Assembly: GCF_026151205.1 (NCBI RefSeq)
Contig: NC_087080.1
Location: forward strand, 319,812-383,811
Direction of reading: 5' to 3'
DNA length: 64,000 bases
DNA from: Bolinopsis microptera
Lineage: Eukaryota > Ctenophora > Tentaculata > Lobata > Bolinopsidae
Positions 13,289 to 37,200 of this stretch are shown piece after piece. The notes beneath the pieces were generated by a model. The model was not told the origin of the DNA and searched no databases. It was given only the letters and a program-made list of their open reading frames with translations. Numbering within the stretch: the first letter of the stretch is position 1; the number at the start of each line of letters is the position of its first letter. Both the position numbers and the translations under genes were made by a program.

Positions 13289-16200
13289 GTTAGTAGTAAC
13301 TATGGTAACTTGTTTTTCCCTTGGAAATTTGTGGGGGTTCCCTTTAATAATTTGTAGTTTTAAACAAGTAACTTGTATTTTTAAAAAGGAAATTGTGTTT
13401 TAACAAGGTAACTTGTATTTTAATTTGGGTAACTTGTAGTTTTCCCTTGGTAATTGGGAAATTTTAACAAAGGAAACTTGTATTTTAAACAAAGGTACTT
13501 TTTAGTTTAAATAAGGAAACTTGTAGGTTAAAAAAGGGAAAATTTTTAGTTTTTTTAACTCGTTTTAAATGGTAATAAATTACAGATACGGGGGTAATAT
13601 GTAACTTTGGAAAACTATAAGAGTTTTTACTTGGAAACAAAAATCCTCACCCCGCGGGGTTAGAGTGTTTTAAAGCTTGTCCTGTCGGAACCTTTGCTGA
13701 ACAGTCCGGTTCGTTTATGTGCTCTCATTGCCCGGAGGGTAGATACAGGACAGGGGGGTTTTACAGGGGGTATTGAAATAACCTTTAAACTTCTTTCTTC
13801 TCTTTATTGTATAACAAAACGTTAAACACTTTTTTCCCTTCCTTTAAATACTTACTTTTTTAAGGGGGGTTTTCCCAAACCTTCCTTATTTTCCCCTTTA
13901 TTTCCCACCCTTTTAATTTTTAAAAACTATTAAAATTTTCTCTTCACCCATTTCTTGTTTTATATTATCATTATGTTTAAAAAATCCGGCCCCTTTTGGA
14001 GGGGGAAAAACTGGTTTAGGGAATAAAAATTTTTCATTTTAAAAAGGGGGGGGGGGGTGGGGGGGGGGGGGGGGGGGGTTTTGGGGGGGGGGGGGGGGGG
14101 GGGGGGGGGAAAGGGTTTGAAATTTGGGTGAACCCCCAAAATTCTTAAATCCGTTTAAAACCCCTTTTCCCCCCATTTTTAACCTTTTTTTAATTGTAAG
14201 GTTTTGAAACCCTTTTTAAGGAAAACCCCCTATGTGTTTTGTAACATTGAATTTTGTGGGAACTTTCCTAAGGCTTTGAATTTAATTTTTTGGTGTGTCA
14301 TGGTCTTTTTTCCCCCCGGGGTAATTTTTATTTTCCTTTTTAAACCCAAGTAGGTAAAGGTTTTAGTTTTTTAAATTGGGTTTGTTTAACCAGGGACTGC
14401 AGGGAAAAAGGAAAATTTTATTATTTTATTAAACAAAATAGGAAATTTTTGGAATTGAGTAAAAAATTTTGGGTTTGGGGAATATTAAACTTGATTTTAA
14501 AAGGGGGAAAGGGGGGGGGGGGGGACGGGGTTTGGCAGTGCGTAAAGTCCCCAAAGGGTCTTACATTTCCTAAGGTAGTTTAATTTATGGTAACTTTTAT
14601 TTTTAATTATGGTGATATGGAAACCTTGTGGGTGTAACTATGGAAAACTTGTTCAGGGGCTGAAGTGCCCTAAGGGGGTACACTTTAAGGGGGGGACGCT
14701 TGTTTTGACTGTATACGGGAAACCCTTTACAACGACGCGGGGGGAATGAGGGAGTGAAAAAGGATCCCCGGGCGGGTTTCTTTTCTAAAGGAGGTAAATT
14801 CTTTGCTAAATGTGGCTATTTAATATTTATTTACAATAACACACGTGCAATTAGTTTATTTACATACTGACTTTGCATGTGCAATTTTGTATATTAACTA
14901 ATGAATAACCTTCAACGTGCAATTAACATTGAAATTTTAACGTGCATGTTTTTAATCAAATAGCATCGCACGTGCTGGTTTGTAATCAATTAATATTGCA
15001 CGTGCAGGTTTGTTTAAAAAATCAAATTACCTTTGCCGTGCGGGTTTTTTAAAAAATTAACATTCCCCAAAAGTTTCAGGGTTTGTTATCAATTAACTTT
15101 GCCTTCGGTTTTTAAAAAATTTAACATTGCACTTTGGGGCTTTGGGGTTTTGAAAATCAATTAAACCTTTTTGAAAATTTGCCGGGGGTTTTAAAATTAA
15201 TTTAAACCATTGCACGTCCCGGTGACGAGAATTTTTGGGCCGTGCCCGGGGGGTTCAGTACAGCCCAGTCGGGTTCCTCTTCCAGCACCAAGGAAAGGGC
15301 CCGGAGAATAAGTCCAACTTCCCACAAGTGCCAAAAGTGCCAAAAAGGTCATTTAAAAAAATTTTATTTTTCAGTACTATTTAGTGCGTTTTCGGGTAAA
15401 CTTGTAAAGCATGTTATTAAGTGAAGATAAGAGATCTAGAACCACTAACCGTTTATTTACTAGATATTTATTTATTTTTTTAAATGGGTTTTTATTTATT
15501 TTTTCCCGTATTTTTTTAAAATTCTGGGAAAGGGTTTAGAAAAATTTTTAAAGGGACCTTTAAAAATTTAATTTTTTAAATTGAAAAAAGGTTGTAATTT
15601 TCTGTCCCCGGGGTCCCTACTCAGTTTCAGGGGTTAACCAGATGTGGGAAAAACTATAAAACCATTTTTGAAACCCTCCAGTCCCCGGGTGTATTATAGA
15701 AACCCGATGTGTAACACAAAAAACCGGATGTAGTAATTTTAGCCCCCATATTAGAAAACTTTTAAAAAACCCAGTTTGTATTTAACTTTTTAGTCCCAAA
15801 ACGTAGAAAAAATATAGTAACCAGATTTTAGAAAACTTTTGTAACCGGGACGTGTAACTTGTAAAAAAGGACTTTAGTAATTTTAATTTTCTGTCGCCAG
15901 GTCACTACTCAGATCACGGAGTAGCGGAATGTGATCCTTGTCCCCCCGGATCCTTTATAGACTTCACCGGGGCTACTTACTGCAAGTCCTGTCCTGTCGG
16001 CCACTACCGCCAGAAGCCGGGATATGACGACTGTGAGCCGTGTCAGAAGGGCTCAGCTGCTGAGGTGGAGGGGAGTTTGCAGTGCCCTAAGTGTCTGGTG
16101 GGCGAGCACCAGGGCCAGGAGGGACAGGCTACGTGCGACAAGTGTCCCGCCGGCTACTTCCAGGTAATGTGCGACAAGTGTCCCGCCGGCTACTTCCAGG

Positions 16201-34200: not shown

Positions 34201-37200
34201 TCCACTGCAGGTGTAAGAACTGGCTATAGCAACTATAACCCCATGTAATCTAACTTCCACTGCAGGTGTAAGAACTGGCTATAGCAACTATAACCCCATG
34301 TAATCTAACTTCCACTGCAGGTGTAAGAACTGGATATAGCAACTATAACCCCATGTAATCTCACTTCCACTGCAGGTGTAAGAACTGGCTATAGCAACTA
34401 TAACCCCATGTAATCTCACTTCCACTGCAGGTGTAAGAACTGGCTATAGCAACTATAACCCCATGTAATCTAACTTCCACTGCAGGTGTAAGAACTGGCT
34501 ATAGCAACTATAACCCCATGTAATCTCACTTCCACTGCAGGTGTAAGAACTGGATATAGCAACTATAACCCCATGTAATCTAACTTCCACTGCAGGTGTA
34601 AGAACTGGCTATAGCAACTATAACCCCATGTAATCTAACTTCCACTGCAGGTGTAAGAACTGGATATAGCAACTATAACCCCATGTAATCTCACTTCCAC
34701 TGCAGGTGTAAGAACTGGATATAGCAACTATAACCCCATGTAATCTAACTTCCACTGCAGGTGTAAGAACTGGCTATAGCAACTATAACCCCATGTAATC
34801 TCACTTCCACTGCAGGTGTAAGAACTGGCTATAGCAACTATAACCCCATGTAATCTCACTTCCACTGCAGGTGTAAGAACTGGATATAGCAACTATAACC
34901 CCATGTAATCTCACTTCCACTGCAGGTGTAAGAACTGGCTATAGCAACTATAACCCCATGTAATCTAACTTCCACTGCAGGTGTAAGAACTGGCTATAGC
35001 AACTATAACCCCGTGTAATCTAACTTCCACTGCAGGTGTAAGAACTGGCTATAGCAACTATAACCCCATGTAATCTCACTTCCACTGCAGGTGTAAGAAC
35101 TGGCTATAGCAACTATAACCCCATGTAATCTAACTTCCACTGCAGGTGTAAGAACTGGCTATAGCTCTATAGCAACTATAACCCCATGTAATCTCACTTC
35201 CACTGCAGGTGTAAGAACTGGATATAGCAACTATAACCCCATGTAATCTAACTTCCACTGCAGGTGTAAGAACTGGCTATAGCAACTATAACCCCATGTA
35301 ATCTCACTTCCACTGCAGGTGTAAGAACTGGCTATAGCAACTATAACCCCATGTAATCTCACTTCCACTGCAGGTGTAAGAACTGGATGGACACTCAGCA
35401 CCCGGAAGCGGGAGATAGCACGTACTGTGCTAATCCTGACCCTAAACAGAAGAGCGAGCCGTGGTGCTACACACACGACCCTGCCGTGGAATGGGAATAC
35501 TGCTCTGTTCCTAAGTGTGGTCAGTAGTGTTACTATTATTTTAATATTATCTAATACTGCTCTGTTCCTAAGTGTGGTCAGTAGTGTTACTATATTATCT
35601 AATACTGCTCTGTTCCTAAGTGTGGTCAGTAGTGTTACTATTATCTAAGTTTTACTTTATATAGTCACTAATATTATCTAATACTGCTCTGTTCCTAAGT
35701 GTGGTCAGTTTTACTTTATATAGTCACTAATATTATCTAATACTGCTCTGTTCCTAAGTGTGGTCAGTAGTGTTACTATTATCTAATACTGCTCTGTTCC
35801 TAAGTGTGGTCAGTAGTGTTACTATTATCTAAGTTTTACTTTATATAGTCACTAATATTATCTAATACTGCTCTGTTCCTAAGTGTGGTCAGTTTTACTT
35901 TATATAGTCACTAATATTATCTAATACTGCTCTGTTCCTAAGTGTGGTCAGTAGTGTTACTATTATCTAAGTTTTACTTTATATAGTCACTAATATTATT
36001 TAATACTGCTCTGTTCCTAAGTGTGGTCAGTTTTACTTTATATAGTCACTAATATTATCTAATACTGCTCTGTTCCTAAGTGTGGTCAGTAGTGTTACTA
36101 TTATCTAATACTGATCTGTTCCTAAGTGTGGTCAGTAGTGTTACTATTATCTAATACTGCTCAGTTCCTAAGTGTGGTCAGTAGTGTTACTATTATCTAA
36201 TACTGTTCTGTTCCTAAGTGTGGTCAGTAGTGTTACTATTATCTAATACTGCTCTGTTCCTAAGTGTGGTCAGTAGTGTTACTATTATCTAATACTGCTC
36301 TGTTCCTAAGTGTGGTCAGTAGTGTTACTATGTAATACTATTTAATATGATCTAATACTGCTCTGTTCTTAAGTGTGGTCAGTAGTGTTACTATGTAATA
36401 CTATTTAATATGATCTAATACTGCTCTGTTCCTAAGTGTGGTCAGTTTTAATTTATATGGGGTGTTACTATGGTTACATTACCTTGTATAGTAGTGTTAC
36501 TATGGTGACGTTACCTTATATGGTAGTTTGCAGACAATTAACCACTTTGATCCTTCCTCAGTTTGGGACTTTGAGTGCTACACTGGTACTGGGTTTGAGT
36601 ACAGGGGCACTCTAGCCCGCACTGAACAAGGCTACACTTGCCAGAACTGGCAGAGCGACTGGCCCCATCCTCATGTTAGTTTAATATTTTATTTGTTATT
36701 TGCTAAACTTTATTTAGGAGGAGAACTTAATACGAGACTAAGCGGCTCCTTCATAAAATAACGAAATGTTTATCTGCAGAGTTATCACCGTGGTAACGGG
36801 GCAGGAGACCATAACTACGGCAGAAACCCGGGTAACAACGAGCGAGCCCCGTGGTGCTTCACAACCAACCTTTTCAAAAGATGGGACTACGTTAACCCTG
36901 GACGATGCAGTGAGTAATTTCATTATTAGTGCTCCATCTCCTAATAAGGGCATCACGTGGGGAGAGCTTCATCTCCTTATATGGGCATCACGTGGGGAGA
37001 GCTTCATCTCCTCATATGGGCATCACGTGGGGAGAGCTTCATCTCCTTATATGGGCATCACGGAGGGGGGGGGGGAGCTACTTTTAAAGCTAGTGTAGAT
37101 TGGTAATGAACTAAGAACATTCATAAAGTTCTTCCCACTACTTCGTAGCAACTAGCAATTTATTGTATTTGAGATAATGTGAGGTTAATATCGAGTTAAT

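Follow-up and report, generated by a model that had tools for sequence, protein, structure and literature searches.

Tandem repeats that lie across exon-intron boundaries were named mirages in the Adh3 gene of amphioxus, and are also described in the amphioxus globins BflGb6 and BflGb9, in PGBD5 and in troponin C (PMC3087553, PMC3902484). In the accessible portions of these two papers, Adh3 and the globins are reported to splice regularly, the same is inferred in the case of PGBD5, and the Adh3 mirage shows somatic instability. Outside amphioxus, the cases among the papers listed from the available literature are human and plant. In humans, segmental duplications contain internal tandem repeats at boundaries of exon and intron, which may change the mRNA or give rise to new introns, according to the accessible part of PMC2812944, and intron gain via tandem duplication, the Rogers model, is treated for potato RdRp in that of PMC4974935. 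The present work concerns a gene of the ctenophore Bolinopsis microptera that encodes Ephrin_rec_like and kringle domains. It lies in a window of 64,000 nucleotides, positions 319,812 to 383,811 of contig NC_087080.1 (NCBI RefSeq assembly GCF_026151205.1). Six minisatellite arrays of this gene have a unit composed of an exon edge, its splice site and neighbouring intron. These arrays are further mirages, a phenomenon already known from amphioxus and here dense within one gene. They probably arose from random tandem duplications whose breakpoints fell by chance on either side of a junction, and which were then expanded.

Six arrays across the exon-intron boundaries of one gene

Tandem Repeats Finder (TRF) returned 176 rows for the window, which were cut by overlap to a non-redundant list; the array lists for the statistics were curated by hand from the TRF rows. 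As seen in Table 1, the six arrays have units of 36-64 bp in 5-64 copies. Three donors and three acceptors are hit, each unit joins exon end, splice site and intron, and AG or GT recurs in many copies, which are properties that mirages also have. Two of the arrays adjoin purely intronic ones, A2 a 30 bp array at 16776-17112 and A5 a 37/77 bp array at 31309-31865. The limits of A6 come from TRF rows merged by hand, and its row in the non-redundant list begins inside the intron.

The extension of the repeats into exons was also measured with an edge probe, in which the 40 exonic edge bases were scored against their own intron and against 30 shuffled introns each. For the five arrays other than A3 the scores were 63, 80, 65, 30 and 48, with a shuffled maximum of at most 24. 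A3, with only 8 exonic bases, scored 16 against a shuffled maximum of 20, and its copies were read directly in the sequence. A first-pass annotation of the window, made from the sequence alone, had proposed these six arrays. The starts it gave agree within 6 bases for five of them and within 25 for A2 (17112 against 17087 by TRF), and the unit composition that it described was found in every array.

Its further statement that the arrays differ in sequence is borne out by pairwise unit comparison. Only 3 of the 15 pairs reached P values of 0.015-0.02, all of them with A2, and none survived correction. Insertion of similar sequence at many sites would be an introner-type event, by a definition that follows PMC9860276 in part. 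A shared mobile sequence or introner-type insertion was rejected as the source, there being no convincing similarity among the six units.

The host gene was modelled with 20 exons. Ephrin_rec_like was recognised by Pfam in 8 stretches in exons 1-7 and in 4 stretches in exons 9-20, and kringle in 2 stretches; the 5' end of the gene was not found. With the translation of exons 9-20 (531 residues) as query, 80% was covered by a match of 100% identity to "plasminogen-like [Bolinopsis microptera]" (P0121). This separately made NCBI protein agrees fully with the model from a point inside exon 10 through to the stop, and its whole sequence, first residue included, is contained in the model. Exon 8 (25632-26091) has a frameshift, with the frame changing near 25915, which is either a sequence error or a real lesion. 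It can also be seen that P0121 starts only inside exon 10, downstream of the frameshifted exon 8.

Table 1. The gene, its six junction-spanning arrays and four weaker duplications, in window coordinates
Feature	Position	Strand	Description	Evidence
Kringle gene	15901..37500	+	20 modelled exons; two kringles after the Ephrin_rec_like repeats; stop at 37498-37500	reading phases, Pfam, P0121 identity
A1	16133..16312	+	36 bp x 5.0, copies 100% identical; donor of exon 1; 31 exonic bp + gtaat	TRF
A2	17087..17803	+	64 bp x 11; acceptor of exon 3; 46 exonic bp	TRF
A3	18349..19752	+	47 bp x 30; acceptor of exon 5; 8 exonic bp	TRF, direct reading
A4	26987..28873	+	43 bp x 44; donor of exon 10; 35 exonic bp	TRF
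A5	31850..35386	+	55 bp x 64; acceptor of exon 17; 13 exonic bp	TRF
A6	35496..36446	+	irregular unit of about 46 bp; 24 exonic bp at the donor of exon 17; 17 motif-matched donor sites	TRF rows, edge probe
Weak case, exon 1 upstream	15592..15912	+	acceptor of exon 1 and upstream copy	15592-15624 is a partial copy of 15881-15912
Weak case, intron 6	24939..25066	+	partial copy of the end of exon 6; copied segment exonic only	28/31 identical, 97 bp apart
Weak case, intron 11	29019..29218	+	donor of exon 11 duplicated once	46/50 identical, 150 bp apart
Weak case, intron 12	29392..29475	+	donor of exon 12 duplicated once	35/39 identical, 45 bp apart

That the arrays were inflated or misplaced during assembly is very unlikely. 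Such an artefact would accord with the poorly polished look of stretches nearby, the frameshift of exon 8 and the five identical copies of A1, and the arrays are known from one assembly. Against it stand the scattered variants among the copies of A2-A5 and the reading phases, which are consistent and free of stops in exons 1-7 and 9-20; the copy numbers may still be wrong.

Additional weaker cases had been suspected in the introns at 25.0, 29.1 and 29.4 kb. The duplications are real, yet each is single and partial, and the copied segment in intron 6 carries no splice site. A fourth case upstream of exon 1 had not been listed before; it sits in sequence of poorly polished look.

Placement of the arrays relative to junctions

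The random origin proposed here can be set out in several steps. A repeat-rich genome would produce tandem duplications of about 10-80 bp at nearly random places and expand them by slippage or unequal exchange; in line with this, arrays are frequent beyond the gene too, where they cover 58.6% of the right flank. Duplications inside exons, which change the protein, would be removed by selection, as suggested by the junction arrays being the only TRF arrays that touch exons; all 133 exon bases in the TRF list (4.1% of 3243) lie within them. From the geometry of the sequence, a duplication across a junction would leave one complete junction beside an intact exon and could be tolerated like an intronic one, the mRNA staying the same provided that splicing takes the exon-proximal copy. 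By calculation, introns would have been very short before expansion (median 133 bp for the 18 collapsed introns), and a large share of the tolerated duplications would therefore cross junctions. That share is set by unit length relative to intron length. Splicing would then keep to the exon-proximal copy, which fits the protein record described below.

The first-pass annotation had suggested that junctions are preferred over ordinary intronic positions. This was compared with a null model in which arrays fall at random in introns or across junctions and purely exonic duplications are removed by selection. Each array was collapsed to one unit, and 18 introns were used, with intron 5 omitted for quality. 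Among 21 arrays, 6 lie at junctions where 5.1 were expected (P = 0.40), and the inclusion of intron 5 changed little (6 of 27, 5.1 expected, P = 0.41). When at least 1 exonic base was required, the expectation was 6.8 (P = 0.72); with at least 13 exonic bases it was 4.1 (P = 0.21), a value too low if anything, A3 with its 8 bases being counted. For units of at least 30 bp with fixed collapsed lengths, 6 of 13 arrays lie at junctions (P = 0.27). The claimed preference is thus unsupported, and a junction preference in this gene was not shown.

Two further properties were considered. Junction arrays have longer units than intronic arrays (P = 0.001), as the geometric rule of unit length against intron length predicts. 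Penetration into the exon, expressed as a fraction of the unit, was 0.17, 0.24, 0.52, 0.72, 0.81 and 0.86, to which a uniform distribution fits (Kolmogorov-Smirnov P = 0.88; six points, with little power). Clustered penetration would be expected if the junction sequence set the breakpoints. The split into three donors and three acceptors, the lack of convincing similarity among the units and the variability of their exon-derived parts, given below, also speak for a random origin.

Several observations weigh against random duplication as the sole cause, and the count of high-copy arrays, the copy numbers and the density at junctions also favour an active role of the junction, by which its DNA or nascent RNA promotes duplication or expansion there through R-loops, AG-GT microhomology or local pausing. 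Of the 12 arrays with at least 4.5 copies, 6 lie at junctions, against an expectation of 2.95 (P = 0.042), and for units of at least 30 bp, with the dropped arrays left uncollapsed, P was 0.09; both cut-offs were set after the data had been seen, and dropped arrays that stay uncollapsed lower the expectation. Copy number is higher in junction than in intronic arrays, both for all units (P = 0.0036) and, within this gene, when only units of 28-70 bp are compared (P = 0.011). Such comparisons were likewise set up after the data had been seen. Density is higher as well, with 5.2 junction arrays per eligible kb against 3.2 intronic ones. Moreover, intronic arrays of 28-70 bp, at 3.2 per eligible kb, exceed the 0.89 per collapsed kb of the right flank, and this excess is unexplained by uniform random birth. 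The null model itself is built on a single gene, with arrays curated by hand and collapsed lengths that are estimates, and the four weak cases were left out of the test, two-copy intronic duplications not having been ascertained alike.

An active role of the junction is nonetheless unlikely. The overall count fits random placement, also for the longer units, and so does the depth of penetration. Copy number at junctions does not differ from that of ten intergenic arrays in the right flank, where up to 156 copies occur (P = 0.29), and the comparison with intronic and intergenic arrays pooled gave P = 0.07. The higher copy number over intronic arrays stays as a weak residue in favour of the junction reading of the first-pass annotation. 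A broader form, in which ctenophore junctions are true minisatellite hot spots coupled to transcription or splicing and a large share of introns grew from copies of their own junctions, is improbable to at least the same degree.

Competing splice sites and the history of the introns

Each array was searched with its own splice motif, and every site was checked for frame and stops. In total 170 sites matched, in agreement with the proposal that many near-identical splice sites compete in each intron; they are motif matches, not working sites, since the A3 motif admits AC and the A4 motif admits CAC before GT. Only 11 keep the frame open: 5 of 5 in A1, 2 of 11 in A2, 1 of 30 in A3, 1 of 43 in A4, 1 of 64 in A5 and 1 of 17 in A6. 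In A3-A6 the sole usable site is the exon-proximal copy. At introns 10, 16 and 17 P0121 follows the exon-proximal copies, those of A4, A5 and A6; introns 1, 2 and 4 lie outside it, and the related proteins P0122-P0124 are without insertion at the junctions of introns 10, 16 and 17.

Exon definition predicts the choice of the exon-proximal site among identical ones. The arrays also offer a natural test of splice-site choice: as many as 64 acceptors of almost the same sequence are in competition, and the protein is preserved only by the one next to the exon.

The alternative of a functional role, with the arrays kept as banks of splice sites for protein isoforms or for the tuning of splicing, is scarcely probable. 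In its favour are A1, where all five donors are in frame and free of stops and each would add 12 residues, and the splice dinucleotide, which is intact in 148 of the 153 full copies scored in A1-A5. Mean copy divergence within arrays is only 0-3%, and for this reason intact dinucleotides are expected without selection; usable sites are also few, one per array in A3-A6 and two in A2. Selection on the exon-derived part of the copies was tried as an explanation and rejected, as this part is not less variable in three of the four arrays that vary. Compared with the intron part, its variability is higher in A2, A3 and A4 and lower in A5, with A1 invariant; for A3, the 14 bases taken as exon-derived include 6 outside its 8 exonic bases. 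As a separate observation on A1, the copies of which are 100% identical, splice choice could add cysteine-rich steps of 12 residues.

Tandem duplication had also been suggested to have created or enlarged the introns. The arrays did enlarge the introns, TRF rows of period at least 8 covering 82% of 13420 intron bases (intron 5 excluded). Creation by duplication of AGGT-containing coding sequence, as in the Rogers model, is the least probable of the explanations considered. Its favourable points are the published intron gain by tandem duplication, in the accessible part of PMC4974935, and AGGT across the junction in A1, A4 and A5; the motif is absent in A2, A3 and A6. A search of the six junction-array introns for the opposite exon edge revealed no copy, the scores of 10-15 being below the shuffled maxima of 19-23; at this sensitivity, which copies shorter than about 10 bp would escape, none of the six was seen to be bounded by two copies of a duplicated exonic segment. 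Also, the far splice site of these introns is embedded in other sequence. The arrays were consequently rejected as creators of the introns.

Surroundings and comparison with known systems

Apart from the gene, several observations were made on the window. On direct reading, 14100-15900 has distorted homopolymers and is probably poorly polished; 5400-14100 and 20200-24830 are perhaps poorly polished too, judged from TRF rows alone. A C-rich run lies at 22924-23748 and a poly-C run at 62193-62657. A 13-bp array, CTAGGTAGGTACT, extends from the first base of the window over 1-5028 in about 387 copies. Two arrays at 36931-37062 (35 bp) and 42100-49584 (48 bp, 156 copies) have the string CTCCTTATATGGGCA in common. 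An intact reverse-transcriptase frame at 38832-40235, apparently of a non-long-terminal-repeat element, has 51-87% identity to its relatives among the matches listed (at least 120). Three of the listed relatives are labelled as a Cytophagales metagenome-assembled genome (NCBI), and may be animal DNA in bacterial bins.

No report of junction-spanning minisatellites in ctenophores was found among the papers listed by searches naming ctenophores; as these covered open-licence literature, the absence is weak evidence. The accessible part of the Mnemiopsis genome paper (PMC11797021) mentions one tandem-repeat scaffold and not introns. A pattern search for DNA of relatives gave 6 matches in genome contigs, of which none was confirmed, and no match in viral contigs.

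Compared with the plant case, the Bolinopsis arrays share tandem duplication over an intron-exon boundary with the Rogers model and potato RdRp, as far as the accessible part of PMC4974935 describes them, and differ in that a new intron is not evident. They share minisatellite expansion at exon-intron boundaries with the human repeats, as given in the accessible part of PMC2812944; unlike those repeats, which may change the transcript, the NCBI protein is without such a change at introns 10, 16 and 17. The closest likeness is to the amphioxus mirages, whose units, in the available descriptions, likewise combine an exon edge with its splice site and intron, lie at both 5' and 3' boundaries, and carry AG or GT in many copies. 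The differences are that Bolinopsis is a ctenophore and not a cephalochordate, that six arrays and weak cases occur in one gene, and that an array reaches 64 copies. The rule that junction crossing follows unit length against intron length is quantitative, simple and testable in any genome. With these arrays, mirages known from amphioxus extend to an animal phylum far removed from it, at high density in one gene.

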